A stretch of DNA of 43,833 nucleotides from a virus: positions 1 to 43,833 of IMG/VR virus record IMGVR_UViG_3300037258_000157; one strand, 5' to 3'. Below are positions 1 through 43,833 of the stretch, one piece after another. The stretch's first letter is position 1. Every line of letters starts with the position of its first letter. Both the position numbers and the translations under genes were made by a program. Below the pieces are notes generated by a model. It was not told the origin of the DNA. It was given only the letters and a program-made list of their open reading frames with translations, and searched no databases.

Positions 1-127
1 AACGACTAGCGAGAAGGTGCCAACCATGCCAGACATCAGCAACCAGGACGACGTAATCGACAGCCGAGACGTGATCGAACGACTCGAACACCTCGCGCAT
101 CTCCACCAGGCCGGCCCAGTCGACATG
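1..127. repeat. Terminal repeat, left copy (circular junction)
   Basis: This 127-base stretch is identical to the last 127 bases of the window. It contains the ribosome binding site and the first third of the first gene, and the promoter for that gene lies just before the right-hand copy, so the two ends join seamlessly. The length equals a common maximum assembly k-mer, so the simplest reading is a circular or circularly permuted genome of 43,706 bp rather than a true terminal repeat. Confidence 0.95.
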
Positions 128-1222: not shown

Positions 1223-1405
1223 ATGGCCTACTACCGACTAGTTCACACAGATACGCGTGAGCCCTACTACGTCGATGGAATGTGTGGCGTCTACAGCGGG
1301 AAAGCTGACATTGCCGAGACGGTCGACGACCGCGACGACTTGATGGATGCTGACGGTTTCCCGCTACCCGGTTGGATATGGTTCCCGGGTCCAGCGCGCA
1401 AGTAG
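1223..1405 (+). CDS. Small hypothetical protein
   Basis: A 60-residue acidic protein whose ATG directly follows the previous stop, so it is probably translationally coupled. Aromatic residues are frequent (Y, W, F) and the C-terminus is PGWIWFPGPARK. No family recognised. Its stop codon TAG is the first part of a TAGAACGA repeat found three more times in the next 900 bases, and a strong terminator follows. Confidence 0.6.
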   Translation: MAYYRLVHTDTREPYYVDGMCGVYSGKADIAETVDDRDDLMDADGFPLPGWIWFPGPARK

Positions 1406-1444
1406 AACGATACCAGGCCGACTATATCGGTTGGCACCGAAACC

Positions 1445-1478
1445 AAACGACCCCGAGGCCAACACCTCGGGGTCGTTT
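1445..1478 (+). terminator. Strong terminator hairpin ending the first gene group
   Basis: The arms AAACGACCCCGAGG (1445-1458) and CCTCGGGGTCGTTT (1465-1478) pair perfectly over 14 bases around a 6-base loop. The stem has an A-run on the left and TTT on the right, so it could work in both directions. It lies 40 bases after the last of the first four genes and closes that group. Confidence 0.8.
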
Positions 1479-1595
1479 GCGTTGTCGCATTCCAAGCTCG
1501 ACGCCCGGCCACTCGCGCGGTCCGCTTCCTTCGGCATCGCTTCGCTCCGAAAATCATACGCGCGCCGTCAAGTAGGCGAAATCGGTACATAGGGT

Positions 1596-1658
1596 CCGTG
1601 CCGCCGTGCCATCTTACGCGCGAAGTGAGTAGAACGATTTGATGGCACGGCGGCACGG
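1596..1658. repeat. 18-base perfect inverted repeat
   Basis: CCGTGCCGCCGTGCCATC (1596-1613) and its exact reverse complement (1641-1658) flank a 27-base spacer that contains one TAGAACGA copy. Each arm itself contains two CGTGCC-like units. The right arm ends directly at the -35 of a possible promoter. It could be an operator, a replication or resolution site, or a transcript hairpin. Confidence 0.75.
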
Positions 1659-1659
1659 G

Positions 1660-1686
1660 TTGACTTTTGGGTATCTGTGATATAGT
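1660..1686 (+). promoter_or_regulatory. Candidate promoter with extended -10
   Basis: TTGACT (1660-1665) is followed by TGA-TATAGT (TATAGT at 1681-1686), that is a good -35, a TGn extended -10 and a good -10, but with only 15 bases between them. Transcription from it would run through the nested hairpins at 1776-1857 into the Cys/His gene at 1875 and the helicase group. Confidence 0.5.
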
Positions 1687-1775
1687 GGAGAGGCGCGCAC
1701 TGTATATCGTAATAGATTTCTAGGGTATTCGAGGGTTATAACTTCGGACAAGTAGAACGATACCGGGCACGCCAA

Positions 1776-1857
1776 GTTGAATACACTATGGGACATCACC
1801 TACAGATTTCGAGAGGTGATGTCCCAAATATTTCTCTGGACTGGCAAAGTATTCAAC
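1776..1857 (+). other. Nested inverted repeats, possible structured leader RNA
   Basis: An inner stem TGGGACATCACCT (1789-1801) / AGGTGATGTCCCA (1814-1826) of 13 perfect pairs with a 12-base loop lies within an outer stem GTTGAATAC (1776-1784) / GTATTCAAC (1849-1857). The structure ends 17 bases before the start codon at 1875. It may be a leader hairpin, attenuator or part of an origin. An alternative start codon, ATG 1788, would lie at the edge of the inner stem. Confidence 0.6.
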
Positions 1858-1874
1858 GGTATTCTCCTGCCATT

Positions 1875-2261
1875 ATGGCCCTCGATCCAGGTGATACTCG
1901 CCACGGAACGCGCAACGGCTACAACAACCTCGGGTGTAGATGCGACGCGTGCAAGAGTGCTGAAGCCGAATATCAGACCACGCGCCGAACCAATCGTACA
2001 GCACTAAACCGTGCTGGACAGGTACGACTACGCCACGCGCGTGTATCTACCTACAATAACTATGGGTGTAGGTGCGAGCTGTGTAAGAGGGCCAAACGGA
2101 ACGATACACGGGCTCGACGCGTAGCCGCCAAAGAAAAAGCGGCCCTGGCTCTTGACGTTGCGAACTTCCAGGCGTACGGTCGGCCTCCCTTGAGTGGAAT
2201 GGACTTGAGCGAAATGCTCAAGGTGCTCCAAATCCACAAACAAGTGCTCGACCAGCAGTAG
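1875..2261 (+). CDS. Protein with two H-x10-C-x-C-x2-C zinc-binding motifs
   Basis: In the 128-residue reading two units have the same metal-ligand spacing: H10/C21/C23/C26 (HGTRNGYNNLGCRCDAC) and H54/C65/C67/C70 (HARVSTYNNYGCRCELC). Each probably binds one zinc ion. I know the HGT-x-x-GY...GCRC motif from many actinobacterial and actinophage proteins of unknown function, where a role in DNA binding is often supposed. The middle is rich in Arg and Lys and the C-terminus forms a helix. The start is uncertain: ATG 1875 leaves the first motif near the N-terminus as in relatives I recall; ATG 1788 would add 29 residues encoded by the hairpin region. Neither has a clear ribosome binding site. Confidence 0.75.
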   Translation: MALDPGDTRHGTRNGYNNLGCRCDACKSAEAEYQTTRRTNRTALNRAGQVRLRHARVSTYNNYGCRCELCKRAKRNDTRARRVAAKEKAALALDVANFQAYGRPPLSGMDLSEMLKVLQIHKQVLDQQ

Positions 2262-2295
2262 ACCAGCCAGACCAGCCAAATAGAACGAAGCATAC

Positions 2296-2832
2296 GTGTC
2301 AGACCAAGAGCTTGACGCGTCATGGGTCGTCGCGGGCGAATATGACGCTCGCGAGACCTATACGCGTGCAACCGACAGCCGAGGGCACAAAGATTCCCAC
2401 AGGATCAGTATGCCACCACACCTATGGGAACGTGCCTGTGCACTAGTCGGTGAAGGGCGGATACCTGGGTATGACTCGCCGGCCGCGTTCATACGTGATG
2501 CAATGGTGCACAGGCTGCATTACTGGTCAGAGAACCAAGTCGACGTCAGTGACTGGCCTGCACACTGGGCTGTTACATGGTTGGCAGTGAAGGCGGGGGA
2601 ACGGCTGCAACATATCCAGCAGTTGAGAGAGTTGCCCGGTGCACATCGCGAGACACTGGAGTTAGCTTTCAGTGAGGGCCTGTACGACATGGTGATAGAG
2701 AACATCATGGAGTTGCGCGAGAAGGCGAAAAGTGTACCGAGTCCTTTTAGTGCAGAGCTGATCAAGATGGCGAGCGACTACGAGGACAAAATCAGTGCAG
2801 TACAGGGCCGAGTGAAGGGATCAACGGAATGA
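2296..2832 (+). CDS. Ribbon-helix-helix-like protein, possible DNA-binding regulator
   Basis: The 178-residue protein has, at about residues 35-75, a segment of the form HRISMPPHLWERACALV followed by SPAAFIRDAMVHRLHYW. That pattern of a short strand plus two helices resembles ribbon-helix-helix-type proteins of actinophages. The C-terminal 100 residues are helical and acidic without a known motif. The GTG start at 2296 lies 7 bases after the fourth TAGAACGA repeat, with no good ribosome binding site, so the repeat itself may matter for its expression. The stop overlaps the next start (ATGA). It might bind the repeats or inverted repeats upstream; that is inference. Confidence 0.65.
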   Translation: MSDQELDASWVVAGEYDARETYTRATDSRGHKDSHRISMPPHLWERACALVGEGRIPGYDSPAAFIRDAMVHRLHYWSENQVDVSDWPAHWAVTWLAVKAGERLQHIQQLRELPGAHRETLELAFSEGLYDMVIENIMELREKAKSVPSPFSAELIKMASDYEDKISAVQGRVKGSTE

Positions 2833-2975
2833 AAGTACGAGAGCTTCAAGAACAACTTGCTCTAGCCGATCCCGACGATGAGGTAGTTGTAATCAACGAT
2901 AACTACCGCGCGCGCCATGAGTCACCTATCCGCACCGTCCGCGCCAACTACCGCGGTTGCTTGATCACCGTCTGA
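2829..2975 (+). CDS. Small phage protein of 48 residues
   Basis: A 48-residue gene whose ATG overlaps the previous stop and whose stop lies one base before the helicase start, so it is tightly packed between two real genes. The reading MKVRELQEQLALADPDDEVV resembles a common small phage family that starts with an MTVxELIxxLxxxxPDxEV pattern, a helix followed by a strand. Function unknown. The fit between neighbours and the familiar N-terminus make it more than a chance reading frame. Confidence 0.7.
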   Translation: MKVRELQEQLALADPDDEVVVINDNYRARHESPIRTVRANYRGCLITV

Positions 2976-2976
2976 C

Positions 2977-4581
2977 GTGACACTTCCACTCCTGTTCCCG
3001 CAGTCCGACCAATGGGCAGAACCCTACCCGACATGGGTTGACAGGTTCCGACCGTGGCAGTGGACCGCCGCGCACCAGATCGTCGAAGCATTCAACCGTG
3101 TCGATGTTGTGGTGCTTGACGCCCCTACTGGTAGCGGGAAAACGCTCATAGCCGAGATGGTTGCGAGGCTACTAGAAGCCAAACGACTGTACGTGTGCAG
3201 CGACAAAGGACTACAGGACCAGTTCACGCGCGACTACCCAGCAAGCCGAGTGCTGAAAGGTAGGTCGAACTACGACACACTCGACGGCGGCGATGAGGTG
3301 ACCGCGGCAGACTGTGACCGTGACCAAGATTTCTGTTCATGGTGCACTGTCACCAGCCGATGTCCATACCAGATCGCGAAACGGGAAGCACGCACCGCGG
3401 ACTGCGCTGTACTGAACACCAGTTATCTGTTGGCTGAATGTAATGGCCCGGGCGAGTTTCGGGATCGTGCGCTGTGCGTGGTGGATGAGGCCGACACGCT
3501 CGAACAACAGTTGATGGGGTATGTGACGTTCGAGCTGACCGAACGTATGGCCGAACGACTCGGGGTAGTGGACAGCGTGCCGGTCAAAGGCAGCCATATG
3601 CCGACGATCGCCACGTGGATTCGGGACATGTTGCGGCCGGCAGTCAACAAAGCACGCGGCGAGTACACAGTGAAAAGCGTGACAGTGCAGAACATTCGGA
3701 CGTTGAAAGCACTCGATGCACTCGGGGAACGTGCCAGGTTGGTCGGCGGGATGCTCGAAGCCGACGCGAGTATGTGGGTGCGAGATAACGGTAACGATCA
3801 TAAGCCACTCGTGCTGAGGCCGATCGTTGTGGACCAACTAGCCGAGGGTGCACTGTGGAAACACGCGCACAGATGGCTGCTGATGTCCGCGACGGTGGTG
3901 AGTGCAGATGAGATGATGGGGAGCCTCGGGAAGGCGCGCGGCGAGTTTGAGGTCGTTACGTGCCCGATGACGTTTCCAGTCGAGAACCGACGCGTGATTG
4001 TCGCACCGGTAGCAGATATGACGAAGAAAGCGAGACAGTGGGATGCCGCAGCGAAGGCAGTTACGAACATCTGCACGCGCCACTCATCCGAGCGGGTGCT
4101 CATTCACAGTGTCAGTTACGGGCTCACAAGACATATTGCAGATGCGCTACGTGCGGGATCAGATCGTCCAGTGTTTACGCACGACACTGCTGCAGGAAAG
4201 AGCCTTGCCGTTGAACGATACCGCGCAAGAGAGCGAGCAGTCCTCATCTCACCATCACTGGAACGTGGAATTGACCTACACGGAGACAACTGCAGAGTCA
4301 TCATCATCTGCAAAGTCCCATTCCCATACTTAGGTGACGCACAGGTCGCTGCCAGAATGCACCGCGGGCGCGAAGGCCAAATGTGGTACACGGTGCAAGC
4401 TATCCGCAGTCTCGTGCAGATGACCGGGCGTGGGGTGCGCAGTGCCGACGACTGGGCGATGAGCTATGTGCTCGACGTGCAGTTCGTGCAGAACGTGTGG
4501 CGGAAATCGAGGCATTTGTTACCGAGATGGTGGGTCGAAGCACTGGACATGAACAACGACGTGAGGTGGTTGTTGGCATGA
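2977..4581 (+). CDS. XPD/DinG-like superfamily 2 helicase with iron-sulfur cysteines
   Basis: This 534-residue protein has the full helicase signature: Walker A APTGSGKT at 49-56, DEAD at 170-173, motif III LLMSAT at 301-306 and motif VI QMTGRGVR at 481-488. Four cysteines at 113, 120, 123 and 129, between motifs I and II, sit where XPD, DinG and Rad3 helicases hold a 4Fe-4S cluster, so 5'-to-3' unwinding of DNA is expected. It heads the DNA-handling group and is probably the replicative or recombination helicase, since no DnaB-like gene is present. GTG 2977 follows the previous stop by one base. The stop overlaps the next ATG. The family assignment is strong; the phage role is inferred. Confidence 0.92.
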   Translation: MTLPLLFPQSDQWAEPYPTWVDRFRPWQWTAAHQIVEAFNRVDVVVLDAPTGSGKTLIAEMVARLLEAKRLYVCSDKGLQDQFTRDYPASRVLKGRSNYDTLDGGDEVTAADCDRDQDFCSWCTVTSRCPYQIAKREARTADCAVLNTSYLLAECNGPGEFRDRALCVVDEADTLEQQLMGYVTFELTERMAERLGVVDSVPVKGSHMPTIATWIRDMLRPAVNKARGEYTVKSVTVQNIRTLKALDALGERARLVGGMLEADASMWVRDNGNDHKPLVLRPIVVDQLAEGALWKHAHRWLLMSATVVSADEMMGSLGKARGEFEVVTCPMTFPVENRRVIVAPVADMTKKARQWDAAAKAVTNICTRHSSERVLIHSVSYGLTRHIADALRAGSDRPVFTHDTAAGKSLAVERYRARERAVLISPSLERGIDLHGDNCRVIIICKVPFPYLGDAQVAARMHRGREGQMWYTVQAIRSLVQMTGRGVRSADDWAMSYVLDVQFVQNVWRKSRHLLPRWWVEALDMNNDVRWLLA

Positions 4582-4778
4582 ACAACCCGTGGGTGTGGAT
4601 CGACCGACCACTGAAAACAATGGCACATATCCGCAGCGGCGACATGACCTTATGCGGCATCAACCTACGCGACCAGCGCACATCAGGGCATGGGGAAACC
4701 GTGCGCATCTGCCAGAAAGTTCCACAAGAGCTAGACCAATGTCCTAAGTGTCGAACTTGGGGCAATCCAACAACATGA
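4578..4778 (+). CDS. Small zinc-ribbon-like protein
   Basis: A 66-residue protein whose ATG overlaps the helicase stop. Cysteines near residues 25, 44, 57 and 60 (TLCG, RICQ, QCPKC) could bind one zinc ion; the CPKC end is typical of short phage zinc ribbons. No enzymatic motif is visible. Being coupled to the helicase, it might be an accessory factor. It ends 14 bases before the GTG of the putative SSB gene. Confidence 0.7.
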   Translation: MNNPWVWIDRPLKTMAHIRSGDMTLCGINLRDQRTSGHGETVRICQKVPQELDQCPKCRTWGNPTT

Positions 4779-4792
4779 ATGGAGAACACCAA

Positions 4793-5581
4793 GTGACGAC
4801 CGGATTGCCCTTCGAGGGCCAGACGTTCGAGGGCTGGGAGACCGGCTCGGGGATGCTCGACAACGAGGACATCACGATCCTCAATGCCAGCTTCCAGTTC
4901 AGGGCCGAATACCACAACGCACAGACCTTGGTACTGGTGCTGGAATACCAGACCAGCACGGGGGAGAGCGGCGAGCAGTTCTTGCCGTGCGGGAAAGGCT
5001 GGGCTCCCGGTGGTGGTGGCCTGCAGATGGTGCATGATAGTGGCAAGCCGAAGAAAATCCACCCGAACACCGCGTACGGGGAATGGCTGTCGAGGGCCAT
5101 CAAACTCGCCGGCCCGACATTGGCACAGCGGGGGCCGGCAACGAACGCGGCAGTGTGGGTCGGGACCGCGTGGCACGTGGAGAGCGTCGAACAGACCTTC
5201 CCGCAACGGCCGGTGAACGGCGTCGCACAGCCGGATTTGACGAGGAGCACGTTGCTGCCGACCGCGTTCCTCGGCGTGCAGGGTGTCGGTGGCCCACAAG
5301 CAAGCGCGGCATTCACTCCGCAGCCTGTCGTGCAGCAGGTGGCCGCCGTGCAAGCCCCGATGGCTCAGACCCCAATGCCGGCACAACAGTCCCTGCAGGT
5401 GAACGGTAACGGTGTCGACCCGATGATCGTCCAGGCCCTCCAGCAGGTCGCGCGCCAATCCGCCGACCAGAACAGCTACATGCAGGAAGGGCTGAAAGTG
5501 CCAGGTGTGGCTGATAACCCGCAGGCCACGGCACTGCTGCTGGATGAGCAGTTCTACGCCGCGGCACGGTCGGGTGCGTGA
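4793..5581 (+). CDS. Putative single-stranded DNA-binding protein
   Basis: The protein has 262 residues from GTG 4793, chosen because GGAGA lies 8 bases upstream; an in-frame ATG at 4775 would add 6 residues. The first half (about residues 20-165) is a beta-rich region with LNASFQFRAEYHNAQTLVLV and PCGKGW, which resembles the SSB-like partner proteins found beside Sak4 and Cas4-like genes in actinophages. The second half is a flexible Gln/Pro/Ala-rich tail, as in many SSBs, but lacks the acidic tip of bacterial SSB. The assignment rests largely on neighbours (helicase, exonuclease, Sak4). A recombination mediator of another kind is the main alternative. Confidence 0.55.
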   Translation: MTTGLPFEGQTFEGWETGSGMLDNEDITILNASFQFRAEYHNAQTLVLVLEYQTSTGESGEQFLPCGKGWAPGGGGLQMVHDSGKPKKIHPNTAYGEWLSRAIKLAGPTLAQRGPATNAAVWVGTAWHVESVEQTFPQRPVNGVAQPDLTRSTLLPTAFLGVQGVGGPQASAAFTPQPVVQQVAAVQAPMAQTPMPAQQSLQVNGNGVDPMIVQALQQVARQSADQNSYMQEGLKVPGVADNPQATALLLDEQFYAAARSGA

Positions 5582-5613
5582 GGACAGCATCGCAGGCGGA
5601 GTAAGCCAGCGAA

Positions 5614-5648
5614 TGGAGGGCCAGTGCTCACCCAGCACTGGCCCTCCA
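5614..5648 (+). terminator. Strong hairpin terminator after the SSB-like gene
   Basis: TGGAGGGCCAGTGCT (5614-5628) and AGCACTGGCCCTCCA (5634-5648) pair perfectly over 15 bases around a 5-base loop. There is no T-run after it, which is common for terminators of high-GC bacteria. A promoter follows 11 bases later, so transcription appears to be stopped and restarted here. Confidence 0.8.
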
Positions 5649-5658
5649 CGAAATCAAC

Positions 5659-5687
5659 TTGCATGGGACAAACGAACGAGGTATCGT
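5659..5687 (+). promoter_or_regulatory. Sigma-70-like promoter after the terminator
   Basis: TTGCAT (5659-5664) and TATCGT (5682-5687) lie 17 bases apart. The -35 hexamer and spacing equal those of the promoter at 43662-43690, and both regions contain ATGGGACAAACGA (5663-5675 and 43471-43483). It would drive the gene at 5723 and probably the exonuclease and Sak4 genes. Confidence 0.7.
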
Positions 5688-5722
5688 GATGGCATCATCC
5701 ATTCTACGTGAAAGTGAGTGCC

Positions 5723-6184
5723 ATGACGGCCACCGAAACCGAACTGCCCGCCGATGGTGGGACTGCTGCTGCACCTGCCGACAGCAACGGCACGAAGGTC
5801 CCGAAGGAAAAGCCCGTGTTCGGCCTCGTGCAGGTCGGCGACACGCTCCCGACCGTGACGCGTGCCACCAGCAACCTCGTCGGCGGCACGACCCGCGAGC
5901 AGCGTTTCAAGGACGACCTGGAGAAGATCAAGGCCGCGCCTGGTGTATGGTTCCAACTCGCCGACTACGGTGCTGGTACCACGGCCAAGAGGACCGCGAC
6001 GTTCCTCACCGAGGCCGTGCAGCCGATGTACACCAAGACCCACGCGGACGGCCATCAGGAACAGGTCGGCGGCGAACTGCTGGACTTGGTGAGCGATGGA
6101 CAGGGGAGTTACGAGTTCAAGGGCCAGCGTTCCGACGAGAACCCGAAGCGGTCGAAGTTGTACGCGCGGTACGTCACTGCGTAA
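5723..6184 (+). CDS. Hypothetical protein between SSB and exonuclease
   Basis: The 153-residue protein has a disordered Ala/Thr/Pro-rich N-terminus (about 35 residues), then a mixed alpha/beta part containing GLVQVGDTLPTVTRAT, a Gly-Val-Trp-Phe stretch, and a Lys/Arg-rich end. I recognise no family. It has its own promoter and lies between terminator-like hairpins on both sides, so it is expressed as a separate, perhaps abundant, message. ATG 5723 is preceded by a GAAAGTGAG stretch; GTG 5708 is an in-frame alternative. An accessory DNA-binding role is possible from context only. Confidence 0.75.
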   Translation: MTATETELPADGGTAAAPADSNGTKVPKEKPVFGLVQVGDTLPTVTRATSNLVGGTTREQRFKDDLEKIKAAPGVWFQLADYGAGTTAKRTATFLTEAVQPMYTKTHADGHQEQVGGELLDLVSDGQGSYEFKGQRSDENPKRSKLYARYVTA

Positions 6185-6203
6185 CGCAGGAGAGCAGAGA
6201 CGC

Positions 6204-6245
6204 GCTACGCGCACGTGAGCAGGTAGCTGGTCCCTGCCACGTAGC
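6204..6245 (+). other. First of three leader hairpins before the exonuclease gene
   Basis: GCTACG (6204-6209) pairs with CGTAGC (6240-6245) and, inside it, GCAGG (6219-6223) pairs with CCTGC (6233-6237). It opens a 205-base untranslated stretch with three successive hairpins (6204-6245, 6251-6309 and 6318-6390). Confidence 0.5.
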
Positions 6246-6250
6246 GGTCG

Positions 6251-6309
6251 ACAGCCCCACCCCAAGTAGGACTCTGGCTACGCGCCACGGTGGAACGGGG
6301 TGGGGCTGT
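6251..6309 (+). terminator. Terminator-like hairpin, second of three
   Basis: ACAGCCCCACCCC (6251-6263) and GGGGTGGGGCTGT (6297-6309) pair perfectly over 13 bases; the 33-base loop has a small CCAC/GTGG stem of its own. The right arm is followed by TTGTCATT, a weak T-rich tail. It probably ends the message of the gene at 5723 or acts as an attenuator for the exonuclease gene. Confidence 0.6.
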
Positions 6310-6317
6310 TTGTCATT

Positions 6318-6390
6318 CTGGTCGCCCCTGGTCCAGAGTTGGTCGGCACCCTGCAGAGGTGTCGCGCAGGTACCCGCCAGGGGCGACCAG
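6318..6390 (+). promoter_or_regulatory. Hairpin covering the exonuclease ribosome binding site
   Basis: CTGGTCGCCCCTGG (6318-6331) pairs perfectly with CCAGGGGCGACCAG (6377-6390) around a 45-base loop. The right arm contains AGGGG, the likely ribosome binding site, and its last base is the first base of the GTG start codon. When folded, the hairpin would block translation of the exonuclease gene, so a switch (protein, RNA or ligand) may control it. Confidence 0.6.
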
Positions 6391-7343
6391 TGAGCGACGC
6401 ACCGATCGCGTATGTAGACCAGGCCACCGGCAAGCACGTGTATAGGGCCAGTGCCCTCGGCATGTGCGACACAGCCCTCATGCTCGCCTTGCATGGCGTC
6501 GAGGGCGCACCACCGCCCGCCGCGATGCAGGCCCGGTTCGATGAAGGGCACAAGAACGAGCCGGTGATTATGGGCAAGCTGCTCGAAGCCAACCCGCAGA
6601 TGGTGATGCAGGCCAGTGACGACCAGATGCAGGTGGAGTTGGAAGTCGGCGGGGCGGTAGTACGCGGCCATATCGACGGGATCATCCAGCACGGGCCGAA
6701 CAGATACTTGGTCGAGGCGAAAGCACTCGGCAAGCAACTGTACAGCGAGTGGGAGAAGTCCGCGAAGTTCCCCAGTAGATTTCCCGAGGGTGGACTGTGG
6801 GATAAGTACGCACTGCAGACCAGTGTGTACCACTACGCGTTGGGCAAACTGCCGATCTGTTTCGTCGTCGGCGAGAAGGACGACAACGGCGACGTGCAGG
6901 GGATTTCGTTCAGATGGTACGCCGAAAGCATGACGCCACTCATCACCATCATGCAACGCGTGCTCAGCCTGGAGCTGCTGGCGAAGCAAGGGATGCCGAA
7001 GGATGATTGCACGAAAGGCGAGTATCCATGCCCGTACTATCAGTTCCACGCCGAGAAGATCGACAACGATGTGCTCGTGCTGGACGACAGCAAGCTAGAG
7101 GATCTGATCCGCGAAGTGAACAAGAAGCGCGAGTATGCGAAAGTGCCGGCAGAGGCACAGAAACAAGCCGAACAAGCACTGAAGGACTACGTGCGAGAGA
7201 TCGGTAGAGCAGAGGCAGGGATGGTGACGCGGGCTGGCAAGATGATCGTAAAATGGCACCACGAGAAAGTGCCTGCTGCAACGGTCGAGAGGAAAGCGTA
7301 CACGAAGGATTACTTCACGATCACGCAGGTTGGTGGCAAGTGA
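6390..7343 (+). CDS. Cas4/RecB-like PD-(D/E)XK exonuclease
   Basis: In the 317-residue reading the nuclease core is clear: RGHIDG with the metal-binding Asp at 96, then LVEAKA with Glu109 and Lys111 (the E-x-K). A cysteine at 26 and two at the C-terminal side (DC-TKGEYPC, spacing C-x5-C) resemble the iron-sulfur cluster of Cas4 and AddB nucleases, though I count three rather than four obvious ligands. Such phage enzymes resect DNA ends to make single strands for annealing. The neighbours, a putative SSB and Sak4, fit that exactly. GTG 6390 was chosen because the upstream in-frame codons run through hairpin arms. The stop overlaps the next start (GTGA). Confidence 0.85.
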   Translation: MSDAPIAYVDQATGKHVYRASALGMCDTALMLALHGVEGAPPPAAMQARFDEGHKNEPVIMGKLLEANPQMVMQASDDQMQVELEVGGAVVRGHIDGIIQHGPNRYLVEAKALGKQLYSEWEKSAKFPSRFPEGGLWDKYALQTSVYHYALGKLPICFVVGEKDDNGDVQGISFRWYAESMTPLITIMQRVLSLELLAKQGMPKDDCTKGEYPCPYYQFHAEKIDNDVLVLDDSKLEDLIREVNKKREYAKVPAEAQKQAEQALKDYVREIGRAEAGMVTRAGKMIVKWHHEKVPAATVERKAYTKDYFTITQVGGK

Positions 7344-8128
7344 CCGTCACACTGCACAGTCCCTACGCAAGCCGGGAACGTGTACTGGTATACGGTCCTC
7401 CAGGCAGCGGCAAGACGACCGCGATCCTACACCTCGCGCGTCGATGCCCGACCAGCACATTCTACGTGCTGGAAGTGAACGATGTCAGCTACGACCGGCT
7501 GTTAGATACAGAGTTCATGGACGTGCGCGCGGCAGGAAACGTGCAGACGGTGCGGATATGGGACTGGGAAGAACTGTTAGCCAGGTACAGTGAACTGGCC
7601 AAGGGCTTGCAAGCGAACGACTGGCTTGTAGGGGACCTGTTCGGCGACTCGTGGAAACTCGTACAGGACTGGTTCATCGAGAAAGTCCACGGTGTTGACC
7701 TCGCGGACTATGCGCTGCAGATGCGTCAGGCGAAATCGGGGAATGAGAAGTCGCTGGAGCTGCTGGACGGCTGGATGGACTGGTCAGTCATCAACCAACA
7801 GTACCACAAACTAGAGACCGCGATGCTGCGGTGTAACGGGCACGTGTTCTGCACTGCTGCTGCCGACAAATACGCGTCAGGGGCCGGCGATAAGGCGACC
7901 GATGCACTGTTGAGCCCGATCGGCTTCAAGCCGGTCGGGCAGAAGCATTTGGCACACAGGTTCCAGACTGTGTTGCTGGCAGATAAGACGCGGGGGGTAG
8001 GTGGAGGGTCATGGACGATGACTACCGTGAAGGACAGGGGGAGAGTGGAGATGGATCGGGTCGCGTGGAACGACTGGGCGACGAACTACATGGTGCAGGT
8101 TGCAGGCTGGACTCTACAGACAACTTGA
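7340..8128 (+). CDS. Sak4/RecA-like single-strand annealing ATPase
   Basis: A 262-residue P-loop ATPase with Walker A GPPGSGKT at residues 19-26, right at the N-terminus, and a hydrophobic-Asp stretch (WLVGDLFGDS) as Walker B. Size, position of the P-loop and neighbourhood match the AAA_24/Sak4 group of phage annealing proteins, remote RecA relatives that work with a cognate SSB. With the preceding exonuclease it would form a two-step recombination machine. GTG 7340 overlaps the previous stop (GTGA) with GGTTGGTGG upstream; a longer in-frame start would lie inside the exonuclease gene. A generic phage nucleotide-binding protein is the fallback name. Confidence 0.82.
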   Translation: MTVTLHSPYASRERVLVYGPPGSGKTTAILHLARRCPTSTFYVLEVNDVSYDRLLDTEFMDVRAAGNVQTVRIWDWEELLARYSELAKGLQANDWLVGDLFGDSWKLVQDWFIEKVHGVDLADYALQMRQAKSGNEKSLELLDGWMDWSVINQQYHKLETAMLRCNGHVFCTAAADKYASGAGDKATDALLSPIGFKPVGQKHLAHRFQTVLLADKTRGVGGGSWTMTTVKDRGRVEMDRVAWNDWATNYMVQVAGWTLQTT

Positions 8129-8149
8129 CAGTAGGTGTATACTGTAGAT

Positions 8150-8335
8150 ATGGACGATGACTCAGAGTACCAGCCAGGTAGCCTAAACCATGCTAAGCTA
8201 TACGCTTGGGCCGTCAATAACGGTGCAGGTATGGCCGAAGCAATGGAATACGCCGACTGGGCCGTTACTGAACTGATCCCCAACTGGACACCCGAAGATG
8301 CACTATACCTCTGGTACCAATGGTGTAGACTTTGA
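8150..8335 (+). CDS. Small acidic hypothetical protein
   Basis: A 61-residue acidic protein with Trp and Tyr along its length (KLYAWAVNN, EYADWAVTEL, LYLWYQWCRL) and no known family. It begins 21 bases after the Sak4 stop; ATG 8150 is taken, GTG 8135 is an alternative. Its stop overlaps the TTG start of the nuclease gene that follows (TTGA), so the two are probably coupled. A perfect TTGACA at 8125 lacks a -10 box at the right distance. Confidence 0.6.
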   Translation: MDDDSEYQPGSLNHAKLYAWAVNNGAGMAEAMEYADWAVTELIPNWTPEDALYLWYQWCRL

Positions 8336-8985
8336 CTATCATCATCTCCCCGACCGAACCCCTGTTCCGAACCCTCGGCCACGTCTCTAGCATCCCCGAG
8401 ACGCACGGCTGCGACTTCATGTTCCAGGCACGCGGCAGGCTGTACGGTGTGCAGCGCAAAGAGTTCGGGGATTTCGTTGCGAGTGTGATGGATGGGCGGT
8501 TAGCGAAAGAACTCGGCCAGATGGTCCAGTTAGAGCAAGCTGTGCTGTGCATTGAGGGCCGGCCGCAATGGACTGAAGACGGGTACTGGGTCGGGCCGAC
8601 GAGGTGGAACAGAACAGCGCACTACGGGTACCTGTGGTCGGTGAGGGCTAGAGGGGTATGGGTCGAGTGGACCGAAGATGCACGCGAGACCGGTGGACTG
8701 GTAGCGGCCTGGGAACACTGGTGCAACAAAGACACACACAGTGCACTGGTTGCGCGGAGTGGACCGCCGGCACCAGCATGGGGGACCGCGACGAACGAGG
8801 AGTATGTCGAGTGGGTGCTGCAAGGGATGCCTGGCGTCGGACCGAAACTGGCCCATGCACTGGTCGAGAGGTTTAGTGGGAGTCCGTTCAGGTGGAAGGA
8901 CGAAGTGACCGTGGAAAGTTTGACAGGGCTGAAGGGTGTAGGTAAAGTGAAGGCAGAACGATTACTGGAGGTGTTCGGTGGCTGA
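8332..8985 (+). CDS. ERCC4-type (XPF/MUS81-like) nuclease with helix-hairpin-helix end
   Basis: The 217-residue protein begins with a compact ERCC4 nuclease domain: GCDF at 26-29, YGVQRKEFGDF at 38-48 and DGRLAKELGQM at 54-64. The C-terminus (about 160-217) has two helix-hairpin-helix units, GMPGVGPKLAHAL and GLKGVGKVKAERLL, which bind branched DNA. Enzymes of this kind cut flaps, forks or recombination joints. The catalytic ERK triplet reads QRK here, which I recall from other phage members too, so activity is likely but not certain. It uses a TTG start overlapping the previous stop and ends inside the next gene. Confidence 0.87.
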   Translation: MTIIISPTEPLFRTLGHVSSIPETHGCDFMFQARGRLYGVQRKEFGDFVASVMDGRLAKELGQMVQLEQAVLCIEGRPQWTEDGYWVGPTRWNRTAHYGYLWSVRARGVWVEWTEDARETGGLVAAWEHWCNKDTHSALVARSGPPAPAWGTATNEEYVEWVLQGMPGVGPKLAHALVERFSGSPFRWKDEVTVESLTGLKGVGKVKAERLLEVFGG

Positions 8986-9397
8986 CGATGATGCACACGT
9001 AGGCCAGAGTGCCGAATGGTACCATCACGCCATCCAGCACCAACAGGACGGCAACAAGGCTCTCGTCGAACAGCTCGCCGTGCAAGGTGTCGGGGTGCAG
9101 TTGAACCCCGACTTTGCATTCGAGGCCCTGTTCAAACTGCTCTGCCCCGACGACGACTGCGCGTTCCTGAAATGGAAGCTAATGACCGAACGGAAGATCG
9201 CAGAGTTCTTGGAGAACGCCTTTACCCCCGAGATGCAGGCAGAGATTCGGAAAGCACAGATCGTGCAAGGGAACGCCGAAGCTGCTGCCGCGATCGCTGC
9301 CGGAGAAGTTGGGGATGTACAGGATAGGTTCGGTGGCGTAGTGCTCGGACAGAACCACGCGCAAGGCAACAGGCAACAGCGAAGGCATCCGAAATGA
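8978..9397 (+). CDS. Hypothetical protein, helical
   Basis: A 139-residue protein starting at GTG 8978 within the end of the nuclease gene. The N-terminus is acidic and His/Gln-rich; the middle (about 45-110) is predicted helical with FEALFKLLCPDDDCAFLKWKL and an Ala-rich helix; the last 25 residues are Gly/Gln/Arg-rich and probably disordered. The two cysteines (LC-PDDD-C) could bind metal or be chance. No family recognised. The stop overlaps the endolysin start (ATGA), but a role in lysis cannot be read from the sequence. Confidence 0.75.
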   Translation: MADDDAHVGQSAEWYHHAIQHQQDGNKALVEQLAVQGVGVQLNPDFAFEALFKLLCPDDDCAFLKWKLMTERKIAEFLENAFTPEMQAEIRKAQIVQGNAEAAAAIAAGEVGDVQDRFGGVVLGQNHAQGNRQQRRHPK

Positions 9398-10230
9398 CTT
9401 GGCCGTACCCGATCATCTTCGACTCGTACGCGCGGTCCAATGCCACTGCAGGCAAAGCTGCCGGCGCGGTCGGCTGGGTACGATACTGCCCTGGCCCGAA
9501 CGTCGACCCTGCCAAAACCTGCACTGCCGACGAGGTGAAAGCACTAGAGGACCAGGACATGACCCTGGTGCTGGTCGGGGAACGTGGCACACAGGACTGG
9601 CGTGGCGGGTACAGTGCTGGGGTGAAAGACGGCACAGGGTACCGTGCTGGGGCAACGAGTATAGGGTATGGTACAGGCGCGACGATCTATGCGAGTGCCG
9701 ACACCGATGTCCTGCAGACTGACGTACCCGTGCTGATGGACTACGCGCATGGGTTCAACATCGGTGCAGGACAGGAGCAGAATGGCGGCCTGTACGCTGA
9801 CGGTGGGAGTCTGAGTGCACTGCACAGTGTCGGGCTCATCAAGTACCCGTGGCAGACAGAGAGTAATGGGTTTTGGGGGAGCGGCACAGTGTATAGTGCA
9901 TGTGTCCTCCACCAGCGCACTAGCCACGTGTTGCAGTTCGGCGGCGTCGACGAGAACGACGTGCTGAGCGTGGACTACGGCCAGCACAACTATAAACCTA
10001 TACCAGTACCGGAGGACGAGATGAACCCCTGTTTGATCGTGTACGTGCAGGATGAGCACGGCAACCCGCTGCCGAGTCGCTGGGTTGTCGACCAGTTCGC
10101 CGGTACGAAACACCTATTCCAGGACGACGCCGTACACAAAGAACACTGCGCACAGGTACAGTTGAGTGGCGGGACTGTGGTCGAACACCCCGCAACACAG
10201 GCGTATGTCGATTCATTGACGAGCGTGTAG
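9394..10230 (+). CDS. DUF1906-like glycoside-hydrolase-type endolysin
   Basis: The first 190 residues match the DUF1906 (Rv2525c-like) TIM-barrel pattern: an early FDSYARSN strand, GAVGWVRYC, LVLVGERG, a GYSAG helix and ATIYASADTDV. That domain is common in actinobacterial secreted proteins and phage lysins and is thought to cleave or bind cell-wall glycans. The remaining 90 residues after a proline linker (KPIPVPEDE) form a separate small beta-rich domain that may bind the cell wall. No signal peptide is seen, so a holin would be needed. ATG 9394 overlaps the previous stop. It is the only cell-wall hydrolase I recognise, so endolysin is the best call. Confidence 0.72.
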   Translation: MTWPYPIIFDSYARSNATAGKAAGAVGWVRYCPGPNVDPAKTCTADEVKALEDQDMTLVLVGERGTQDWRGGYSAGVKDGTGYRAGATSIGYGTGATIYASADTDVLQTDVPVLMDYAHGFNIGAGQEQNGGLYADGGSLSALHSVGLIKYPWQTESNGFWGSGTVYSACVLHQRTSHVLQFGGVDENDVLSVDYGQHNYKPIPVPEDEMNPCLIVYVQDEHGNPLPSRWVVDQFAGTKHLFQDDAVHKEHCAQVQLSGGTVVEHPATQAYVDSLTSV

Positions 10231-10234
10231 TGCG

Positions 10235-11068
10235 ATGACGGCAGACCAGGCTGTCCAGTTCGAGTTCGCCACCTATATCCGCCCAGCCCACGATCTTCGC
10301 AAACGCCTCCAGGTGCGCTTAGACGTGCTCTCCTGCACCGACTGTGCCTGCAGCCCGAACACCCACCTGCCGGCGACGTGTGACGCCTCTGTGCCGCCAC
10401 CGTGGGTTGTGGTCGTCCCGAACCCTCGGCTGTCGACCGAGACCCACCGCGTGCTCACCGCGCTCTGCCCCGACTACGCGCGCGGTGCCGTGCCGGTGCT
10501 CGGGTGGGTGAGCTGCCCTGGTGGCGACCCGAACCTGCCGCCCGTCATGCCGACCATCACCGCGGCGCGCGCGTGTAGGCATCGGCTCTGGCAACAGTTG
10601 GAGGCCCTGCAGTACCCACCGGTCATGTTCGTCGACCAGGGATGGTTGGCATGGCGGGATGACCTTGCGCCGATGACCGTGTGTGGGTGGAGTCATGTGT
10701 GGGGGAATGCGGTCGACCTGCAGGCTGACGGGACCGTGAGTGGCGTGTGGTGCATGGCGCTCGGCAACGTGCGCGGCGTCGGGCTGGGTGTCGAGAGTAT
10801 GCCGAGGCTGCAGGGCTGGATGGAGAGGTTCAGGTGGTGTGTCGAGACCGAACCTGACCCGTTTAGCATGTCAGACTTCAGTGTGGCGGACGACGAGGTA
10901 GGGTTCGCCAGGTGGTTGAGGCCGCACTGTGTCGTGTGCGGGGTGAAAGGGAACGTGCACTACGACCAGGATGCTGTCGCATACTGTGACGTGCACATGG
11001 ACGAGTGTGGAATGAAGTGGCGTCGGCAGCGTGCTAAGTGGATCGAGAATGCCACAACGTCACGATGA
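10235..11068 (+). CDS. Cys-rich hypothetical protein with CxxC...CxxH end
   Basis: The 277-residue protein starts 4 bases after the endolysin stop. It has cysteine pairs near the N-terminus (LSCTDCAC), scattered Trp and Pro-rich segments in the middle, and a C-terminal metal-binding-like pattern, C-x2-C-x15-C-x2-H (CVVCG ... CDVH). The next gene carries nearly the same pattern. I recognise no catalytic motif. Its place after the endolysin suggests a late role but nothing more. Confidence 0.75.
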   Translation: MTADQAVQFEFATYIRPAHDLRKRLQVRLDVLSCTDCACSPNTHLPATCDASVPPPWVVVVPNPRLSTETHRVLTALCPDYARGAVPVLGWVSCPGGDPNLPPVMPTITAARACRHRLWQQLEALQYPPVMFVDQGWLAWRDDLAPMTVCGWSHVWGNAVDLQADGTVSGVWCMALGNVRGVGLGVESMPRLQGWMERFRWCVETEPDPFSMSDFSVADDEVGFARWLRPHCVVCGVKGNVHYDQDAVAYCDVHMDECGMKWRRQRAKWIENATTSR

Positions 11069-20852: not shown

Positions 20853-22717
20853 TACAGGATACCTTGCGGAACATAGCCGACCGAGACTGCAAGGACACGT
20901 GGCGCGTCATCGGAGTTCGTGGAGGTCGACGTGATCTGGACCTGTACCCATGACGCGAACAGGCCGGCATTCAGACGGACGACCTGCATACCGGACGCGG
21001 CCAAGGTGACGGTCTGCGTCACACCTTCACCACCGTAACCTTTCAACGTGAACGCAACAGTGTCGCCTTCTAACCCGACGATCGTGGCGAGTATTTCACG
21101 GCATTCGATATAGCGGTTACGGGACTTGGCGAGAGGCTGGGATTCGTAATAGTAGGAGTGTTGGCCTTGTTCGAGGTCGAATGCGAGGCCAGCAGACGTA
21201 TTCGTGTCGTCAATGTAGGCCCTAAACCCCCATACCTTGCTGGGGCGTGAGGACGAGTACCAGTGCGTGATGTGGACCTGTTCGCCGTTCGGGTCCTCGA
21301 TCTGCCACCACGCGTCCGAACGGAAATCACATACCCACCCGTTCGGGGTGAACAACCACGGATGCGTGTACGCGAACCGCCCGACAGGACCATATATACC
21401 ATAGAACGATCCCGTGCCAGTAGAGCCGTTCGCTGTATAGCATTCGATACCGAACACTGCACCAGGCCAGTTCCGGTCATAGAGCCAGAACAACGGGTCG
21501 AGGTTCTCGCTGATGGATTCCGAATTGTCGAGACCTGCCCACAAGAATGCACCGGCAGCAGTCCCGTACGCGACACCAGGGTAACGGAAGTTATGTCCAG
21601 GGACACTGACCGCTATATTCGGCAGTCCACCAGTAGAACGGATACCAGGCAAACGGAGGACGGTCGGGTTGTCCAATGCACCGGAGATTTCTACAGCACC
21701 CCCAGCGTTCTTGATGATGATGAGCTGGTTCGCCGACACGGAACACCACGTGCCTATGCCTGATGGGTCCTCTTCGACGATGATCTGCGGGCCGAAGAAA
21801 TCTGGCTGGGTAAGGTCGAACTTCCCGTATGCCGCCAACCAGAGCTGTTCAGGATGATAGTAGATACCAGCCGACGTAAACTGATTGTCGCTTGGTGCCC
21901 CATCACTCGACACGACGATCACACGGCCCTGGTGGAGGATGATGAATACACCAGCAACAAAATTAGATGTGTCAGTGAACAGGTTATTGACGTAGGGGAG
22001 ATGGCCTACGGAAGGCGAGCCAGGGTTCGGGAGGGCGAAGAACTGACAACCCTGGATATGTCCACCTACACCCGTAGGGGTAGAGGCAATCGCGAGAACA
22101 GTAGGCCGATGGCCGTGACTATTAGCTGCCGTACTAATGCCAAGGTTGCCAGCACCAACAATCAGGTTCCTTGCACTATCAAGATCCCAGAGATATTCGA
22201 CCTGTGTGTAGGCCGATCCTACGCCCGCGAATGTGTAGGTGAGGGAGACGCCGAACTCATAGATTGTACCACCACTCGTGCCGGCAGGGTTATGTAGGAA
22301 GGCGTAAATGCCGACAGGTACATCGGTTGCCGGAAGGTTATTGTCACCGGAGATCGGACCGTGAACAAGCGCATCAACCAGGAAGCACCGGCCGTAGCCG
22401 CGCGCGATGTCGTTCGTTGCGGGGAGATAGCCTGGACGGCCAGCATTCCCAGTGATAGCGGTAGGGGTCAATGTCCACGTGTCGCCGACCTCGGTGCTCG
22501 GCCGAGGGAGTGGTGCGAGACCACCACTGGGAGGACAGAAACACCCGTACGTGTTATCGGTCGCTGCACCATCAGGGGCACTACGGAGAGCACCGTACAT
22601 GTCCGAATAGATGCCAGGCGAGAAGTCCAGGTCCATGTAGGACAGACCTGGGGTATTGCCTGTCGGGACACCAGGGGCAGACGGCGGAGGACCACTAAGA
22701 GGACTGGTCTGTACCAC
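20852..22717 (-). CDS. Putative tail nozzle protein, beta-rich
   Basis: The 621-residue protein has repeated aromatic- and Gly-rich strands and few helices, consistent with a beta-propeller. The N-terminal part includes LSYMDLDFSPGIYSD and TYGCFCPPSGGLAPLPR, a start I recall from uncharacterised podovirus tail proteins. T7 gp12 and P22 gp10 nozzles have comparable size and fold, and the gene lies just before the adaptor group as in many podoviruses. A receptor-binding protein is the main alternative. GTG 22717 overlaps the previous stop (TAGTG) and its stop overlaps the next start in the same way. Confidence 0.5.
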   Translation of the reverse strand: MVQTSPLSGPPPSAPGVPTGNTPGLSYMDLDFSPGIYSDMYGALRSAPDGAATDNTYGCFCPPSGGLAPLPRPSTEVGDTWTLTPTAITGNAGRPGYLPATNDIARGYGRCFLVDALVHGPISGDNNLPATDVPVGIYAFLHNPAGTSGGTIYEFGVSLTYTFAGVGSAYTQVEYLWDLDSARNLIVGAGNLGISTAANSHGHRPTVLAIASTPTGVGGHIQGCQFFALPNPGSPSVGHLPYVNNLFTDTSNFVAGVFIILHQGRVIVVSSDGAPSDNQFTSAGIYYHPEQLWLAAYGKFDLTQPDFFGPQIIVEEDPSGIGTWCSVSANQLIIIKNAGGAVEISGALDNPTVLRLPGIRSTGGLPNIAVSVPGHNFRYPGVAYGTAAGAFLWAGLDNSESISENLDPLFWLYDRNWPGAVFGIECYTANGSTGTGSFYGIYGPVGRFAYTHPWLFTPNGWVCDFRSDAWWQIEDPNGEQVHITHWYSSSRPSKVWGFRAYIDDTNTSAGLAFDLEQGQHSYYYESQPLAKSRNRYIECREILATIVGLEGDTVAFTLKGYGGEGVTQTVTLAASGMQVVRLNAGLFASWVQVQITSTSTNSDDAPRVLAVSVGYVPQGIL

Positions 22718-23504: not shown

Positions 23505-23702
23505 TCACGCTTTCGGTGCAGGTGGTGCAGGTGGTGCAGGTGGTGCAGGTTGAGCGTTCTTGCCCGTCACGTCCGAAGGTGTCAGCACACCGATCACAGC
23601 ACCGACGCACAACGAACCAATATTGGTTTGCCCGAGCGCGAACAACACGACACCCGCTACAAGTACAGCGATAGCGACAATGAATGTCTGTGTCTGGTTC
23701 AC
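23505..23702 (-). CDS. Small two-segment membrane protein with APP repeat tail
   Basis: A 65-residue protein with membrane segments at about 7-26 (FIVAIAVLVAGVVLFALG) and 28-42 (IGSLCVGAVIGVL), followed by a tail of PAPPAPPAPPAP repeats. The tail is encoded by a 9-base tandem DNA repeat. Two-segment topology and size would fit a holin, but the gene lies between virion genes, so a membrane role in DNA delivery is also possible. It starts inside the end of the preceding gene. Confidence 0.7.
   Translation of the reverse strand: MNQTQTFIVAIAVLVAGVVLFALGQTNIGSLCVGAVIGVLTPSDVTGKNAQPAPPAPPAPPAPKA
23515..23552 (-). repeat. Tandem 9-base repeat in a coding tail
   Basis: About four copies of GGTGCAGGT (plus strand) follow one another and encode the Ala-Pro-Pro repeats of the small membrane protein. 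Such repeats change copy number by slippage, so tail length may vary between phage individuals. Confidence 0.8.
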
Positions 23703-43706: not shown

Positions 43707-43833
43707 AACGACTAGCGAGAAGGTGCCAACCATGCCAGACATCAGCAACCAGGACGACGTAATCGACAGCCGAGACGTGATCGAACGACTCGAACACCTC
43801 GCGCATCTCCACCAGGCCGGCCCAGTCGACATG
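43707..43833. repeat. Terminal repeat, right copy (circular junction)
   Basis: Exact duplicate of bases 1-127. It carries a second, truncated copy of the first gene (start codon at 43732, running off the end). It should be removed when the genome is closed; the partial gene here is not an extra gene. Confidence 0.95.

Follow-up and report, generated by a model that had tools for sequence, protein, structure and literature searches.

The stoperators of cluster A mycobacteriophages and the start-associated sequences of cluster K phages are asymmetric short sites that keep one orientation relative to transcription. The ribbon-helix-helix (RHH) repressor MetJ was found to bind 8-bp met boxes in its own and other promoters, with several dimers on adjacent boxes (PMC2775130), and the RHH protein ParB of pSM19035 was found to bind contiguous heptads in direct or inverted arrangement (PMC9499535). 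The stretch analysed here, a 43,833-base virus contig from IMG/VR called the window below, was found to contain tandem boxes at an exact 8-bp spacing near a predicted promoter, as for MetJ. It is probable (about 0.6) that positions 1406-1874 form the terminator, operator and promoter region of an RHH-helicase replication module.

The first 127 bases of the window (1-127) were found to be an exact match of positions 43707-43833, so that the contig can be closed into a circle of 43,706 bp, or else represents a terminally redundant genome. The plus strand contained the genes from position 26 to about 11.3 kb, including helicase, Cas4-type exonuclease, Sak4-like AAA ATPase and endolysin genes, followed by the presence of portal, terminase and tail genes on the minus strand in the remainder of the window. 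No DNA polymerase and no integrase was found among the window proteins searched. The replication module at 4748-11068 was found to contain no identified DNA polymerase or primase; both are carried by Jasminevirus and Shocker. The related proteins point to actinobacterial hosts. When phage records were searched at the nucleotide level, nothing related to the window and no close relative turned up; Rfam gave a single sub-threshold match, to the terminator hairpin, and scanning the window for tRNAs gave none. A tandem 9-bp repeat, GGTGCAGGT, was present in at least three copies at 23515-23550, within the minus-strand gene 23505-23702.

The non-coding gap in front of the RHH-like gene (Table 1) was found to have a GC content of 53% against 60%. 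The terminator-like hairpin sits at the start of the gap and closes the first early gene unit, followed by the presence of a perfect 18-bp inverted repeat (arms 1596-1613 and 1641-1658), which has the longest arms of all perfect inverted repeats in the genome and an RNA folding z-score of -6.3. The first-pass annotation had described this repeat with TAGAACGA in its loop, and both features were confirmed. The arms consist of the tandem heptamer CCGTGCC at 8-bp spacing, with CCGTGCCG CCGTGCCA in one arm and TGGCACGG CGGCACGG in the other; the pair of CCGTGCCG and CCGTGCCA is present in both arms and abuts the top-scoring promoter. For nearby periods, the chance that an 18-bp arm contains a tandem of this kind is about 0.001. 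The promoter, TTGACT-15-TGATATAGT, begins one base past the inverted repeat and contained the best score in the genome on both strands, as given by our own matrix built from the textbook consensus; a generic promoter scan with 16-18 spacing missed it because its spacer is 15. The nested stems, previously placed at 1776-1857, were found to contain an inner stem of 13 bp (1789-1801/1814-1826) and an outer stem of 9 bp (about 1772-1780/1850-1858) with a z-score of -4.2. The repeats, inverted repeat and nested stems of the earlier description were therefore real, but they were not unique in the phage, an additional TAGAACGA copy was present, and the hairpin, the promoter and the CCGTGCC tandems composing the arms had been overlooked. 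Such structure had been said not to occur elsewhere, which was wrong, as further perfect inverted repeats were found in a cluster at 5614-5648, 6251-6309 and 6318-6390. This second cluster (5.6-6.4 kb) lies around the genes preceding the Cas4-type exonuclease, and the loop of 6251-6309 holds AAGTAGGAC.

Table 1. Positions of the repeats, structures, predicted promoter and genes at the control region of the window.
Feature	Position	Strand	Remark
CAAGTAGAACGATACC, copy 1	1399..1414	+	overlaps stop codon of gene 1223-1405
Terminator-like hairpin, 15-bp perfect stem, 6-base loop	1444..1479	+	z -6.4 (1399-1490)
Inverted repeat, 18-bp arms, 27-base loop	1596..1658	.	proposed operator, four 8-bp boxes
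AGTAGAACGAT copy	1628..1638	+	in inverted-repeat loop
Predicted sigma70/SigA-type promoter TTGACT-15-TGA-TATAGT, extended -10	1660..1686	+	predicted start near 1693
CAAGTAGAACGATACC, copy 2	1749..1764	+	
Nested stems in presumed leader	1772..1858	+	possible attenuator or RNase III site
Small protein, two GCRCxxC zinc-type motifs	1875..2261	+	related to actinophage HNH/HTH proteins
TAGAACGA copy (CAAATAGAACGA)	2281..2288	+	just 5' of RHH gene start; weakest of the four
RHH-like DNA-binding protein, 178 aa	2296..2832	+	kept before helicase; proposed binder of the 8-bp boxes
DinG/Rad3-like DNA helicase	2977..4581	+	PHROG 2488; first large gene of the replication/recombination module

Single-protein scans with the helicase, terminase, exonuclease and portal found no relatives, whereas alignment-based scans of IMG/VR succeeded: an alignment of three terminases retrieved the phage G001 (44,451 bp), and helicase alignments retrieved about 20 phages. 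The relatives are uncultured phages with helicases 25-47% identical to that of the window, and G001 was found to share 45% identity in the terminase, 47% in the helicase and 44% in the portal. A genome scan for prophage relatives yielded only remote helicases (20-29% identity), and prophages were rejected as relatives. The gene order was found to be conserved, with the RHH-like gene just 5' of the helicase gene in nearly all relatives, and a profile recognised it there in most. The profile matched relatives outside its building set at E 3e-30 to 2e-23 (L152, L144, L148 and L145) and L157 at E 6e-18; the match was weak in other relatives, and no match was found in L138 and L139.

The non-coding gap 5' of the RHH-like gene was likewise conserved, with a length of 255-1117 bp in 18 of the 21 genomes and of less than 170 bp in three relatives. 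In all of these genomes the gene calls, and hence the gap borders, come from a simple home-made codon-usage caller. Not one pair among 20 gaps was found to share at least three 12-mers. The gaps contained recurring terminators, strong inverted repeats and promoter-like sites, and perfect inverted repeats of at least 12 bp numbered 13 against 2.0 expected by length, non-coding DNA being terminator-rich anyway. A hairpin was present at the gap start in G001, L142, L145, L148 and L149, and the promoter score in the gap ranked first also in L142 and L139. In G001, the equivalent stretch (1938-3049) contained a terminator-like hairpin and two more hairpins followed by the presence of one nested hairpin at about 2905-3020 with a folding energy of -58 kcal/mol, and GACGGCAGA was found three times in this gap and nowhere else in the genome. 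The 1.1-kb non-coding stretch L143:5941-7044 was found to contain an array of GAGCGAGCCA/GAGAGTACCA units of about 18 bp. Directly 5' of the RHH gene of L143, contiguous GTAAACC octads were present, along with an AT-rich stretch, and L143 is the most origin-like member.

For each period from 4 to 60, 20 gaps were scored for the presence of a tandem run in which seven or more bases match. Period 8 was found in 10 of the 20, whereas the other periods averaged 0.95 gaps with a maximum of 3; this period had been spotted first and was then tested on the same data. L143, the 21st genome, stands outside these counts, and its octads bring the gaps with period 8 to 11 of 21. The period-8 runs in the gaps numbered 13 against 0.57 in dinucleotide shuffles. 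For comparison, 79 kb taken downstream on the same contigs, most of it coding, contained six runs (p 1e-8 against the gaps), and intergenic DNA from elsewhere, 18.8 kb in total, likewise contained six (p 0.004 against the gaps). The two tandem runs of the window represent one event, since they are mirror copies. The units were found to differ from phage to phage: CCGTGCCG, GACGTACG, ATATCTTG, CAGGGTGG, CCCCGTAG, CTTTCTCG, GTCTGAGC, TGTTCGCA, CACATAGC and ACGGATAT. Because every pair of gaps shares fewer than three 12-mers, as described above, the 8-bp repeats look independent. Half of the gaps contained no octads, and the gap of L140, merely 110 bp long, yet contained two period-8 pairs. Octads were commoner in genomes with a strong RHH match (9/12 against 2/9, p 0.024, in a grouping made after the fact).

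The 8-mer TAGAACGA was found in five copies in the window, all on the plus strand, where 0.68 are expected and none of 100 shuffles reached five. Four copies are clustered at 1403, 1630, 1753 and 2281, as the first-pass annotation had stated, but its claim that they lie between genes only was inexact: the copy at 1403 overlaps a stop codon, and the fifth, at 21402, is inside a minus-strand coding gene. At 21402-21419, this fifth copy lies two bases from CCGTGCCA, a box of the inverted repeat, which may be due to chance. The 8-mer alone is modest evidence, since a search over all 8-mers found one with four copies within 900 bp in 8 of 60 shuffled genomes. The strong part is the exact 16-mer CAAGTAGAACGATACC at 1399 and 1749, with the 11-mer in the inverted-repeat loop. 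The stretches 1399-1418 and 1749-1768 agree at 19 of 20 bases, of which the 16 are identical, at an exact spacing of 350 bp, and AGTAGAACGAT is common to three of the TAGAACGA copies.

Conservation of TAGAACGA in relatives, which had been anticipated, was not borne out. G001 contained a single copy, in a coding region, and as the equivalent region of G001 contains none, TAGAACGA is not the conserved signal. A search with the 15-mer AAGTAGAACGATACC gave 29 single matches in IMG/VR and no relatives. The comparison of the gaps points instead to the 8-bp periodicity inside the inverted-repeat arms as the conserved signal, and the TAGAACGA repeats are a second, phage-specific set of candidate sites. 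Such a second class of sites is likely, because dispersed 11-mer repeats of other sequences were found in 9 of 20 gaps against about 1 expected.

The RHH assignment of the product of 2296-2832 is based on a conserved motif and on a weak match of one member to Pfam RHH_8 (E 0.0027), and the same segment gave a weak match to NikR (E 0.29). AlphaFold without alignment gave low confidence for the RHH-like protein, and the model of the zinc protein was of low confidence too. An RHH fold is thus assigned here as a putative one. The earlier hunch of a ribbon-helix-helix gene gained support, as members of the family are kept next to the helicase, with tandem 8-bp boxes recurring 5' of them. The zinc-motif gene had no tblastn match in the nine relatives searched, and it was therefore probably inserted later, downstream of the control region and ahead of the RHH gene. 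Its motif was found to be duplicated, with the copies 132 bp apart in the DNA. A mobile cassette, consisting of the zinc gene flanked by TAGAACGA, was considered and rejected, the repeats and the absence of the gene from the nine relatives being all that suggested it.

The name of master control site, given to the region by the first-pass annotation, came close: the relatives point to a control region that is conserved in position and variable in sequence in front of the RHH-helicase module. The module under control would contain the RHH-like protein, the helicase, the Cas4-type exonuclease and the Sak4-like AAA ATPase. The hairpin at the gap start would terminate the first early transcript, and the strong host-type promoter would start the next one. 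The inverted repeat touching the -35 box can be read as 8-bp boxes (CCGTGCC N) in two mirrored pairs, and an operator fits better than a cruciform because the element combines an inverted repeat with two tandem pairs. By analogy with MetJ, dimers of the RHH-like protein would bind the four boxes cooperatively. The simplest form would be an autoregulatory operator, in which the protein controls the abutting promoter, so that its own gene and the helicase module would be controlled, and the nested stems in the leader RNA may tune read-through or processing. Judged from the sequences, this suggests a fast-evolving switch that is read by the neighbouring DNA-binding protein and is perhaps also a replication origin.

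That the region is (also) an origin, with the direct repeats beside the hairpins bound by an RHH protein that acts as initiator or accessory factor and helps to load the neighbouring helicase, is a tentative reading and rather unlikely. The gap is always 5' of the helicase module and reaches 1.1 kb, which is more than a promoter needs, and the unit array, the octad block and the AT-rich stretch of L143, three tandem 12-mers in L137, the confinement of GACGGCAGA to the gap of G001 and the excess of dispersed 11-mers would all fit an origin. Iterons and an AT-rich stretch beside replication genes are clear in L143 and partial elsewhere. Transcription control can nevertheless account for all of these elements, and we know of no RHH initiator of such a kind. 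After detrending, the GC skew, proposed earlier as a check, was lowest at 3.4 kb for the window, whereas for G001 the lowest point was at 40.3 kb, away from its gap; since the minima differ, the skew is not consistent support for an origin. The DnaA-box matches in the gaps were found at chance level (6 seen, 4.6 expected), and a DnaA-dependent origin was rejected for want of an excess of boxes.

The hairpins allow two further explanations. In the closely related Jasminevirus genomes of the Arthrobacter phages Jasmine, Brad and Casserole, whose portals are 22-23% identical to that of the window, the end of the terminal repeat was found to fall precisely within the loop of a strong, nested hairpin. 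This hairpin adjoins an inverted repeat of 18-19 bp built from iterated TGGATAGGATAG, and the site is the gap that separates the first early genes from the early operon. The hairpins concerned are at L044:43848-43882, L045:45372-45406 and L046:44977-45011 (Brad, Jasmine and Casserole, respectively). The terminal repeats of Jasmine are 1,330 bp long (PMC5513430), the word hairpin not being mentioned in that paper, and terminal hairpins occur in T7 and N4 (PMC4281155, PMC3896407). The region of the window could by this likeness be a genome end or packaging junction of a direct-terminal-repeat phage, with the hairpin processing concatemers, which is very unlikely: the T4 gp17-like terminase is of another lineage than that of Jasminevirus (28% identity to Roseobacter CRP-7 and Vibrio douglas 12A4), Shocker has terminal repeats without such a hairpin, the types and positions of the hairpins vary among the true relatives of the window phage, and the circular closure of the contig does not locate the ends. 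A T7-like terminal-repeat end, suggested by Jasminevirus, was accordingly rejected, being weakened by the terminase type and the relatives. It is highly improbable, too, that the stems act mainly as RNA, that is, as terminators and RNase III or attenuator structures between early transcripts with the repeats being incidental. In favour of this, the window and several relatives have a terminator-like first hairpin, the nested hairpin of G001 folds strongly, and similar hairpins are present between genes at 5.6-6.4 kb, but a role in RNA leaves the exact 8-bp period, its independence of sequence and its placement before the RHH gene unexplained.

If the reading as an operator and promoter of the RHH-helicase module is true, the region would represent a protein-DNA recognition pair whose DNA side has diverged almost completely between relatives, with the 8-bp spacing and the gene order fixed, and about 20 natural pairs would be at hand for studying the change of RHH specificity. 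It would also locate the replication control, and possibly the origin, of an uncultured phage lineage without a characterised member. An unlikely and speculative extension is that, in this lytic lineage without an identified DNA polymerase gene, the RHH protein on its self-paced 8-bp boxes would be both the switch and the origin-recognition factor for the adjacent helicase, which would make a new type of origin that conserves only the box spacing and not the sequence.

The region resembles the met-box operators of E. coli in the tandem 8-bp boxes beside a promoter and, MetJ being an RHH repressor that controls its own gene, in the proposed regulator. It differs in that the boxes vary in every phage, the two pairs of the window face each other as an inverted repeat, and the phage protein is longer, not MetJ-like in sequence and a putative binder. 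The contiguous short direct and inverted repeats are similar to the heptads at the parS sites and promoters of pSM19035, which are bound by the RHH protein omega/ParB, and the array of L143 resembles them closely; unlike in pSM19035, the period is 8, mostly two boxes only are present, and no ParA partner was identified. By general description, TAGAACGA is like the stoperators and start-associated sequences in being asymmetric and in one orientation relative to transcription, but it is present in five copies, four of them in one 0.9-kb stretch and not genome-wide, and no such repressor was identified. The ends of Jasminevirus share with the window a gap after the first early genes that contains a nested hairpin and an 18-19 bp inverted repeat of short repeats followed by the presence of a promoter, whereas the window shows no sign of a genome end and belongs to a different terminase lineage.
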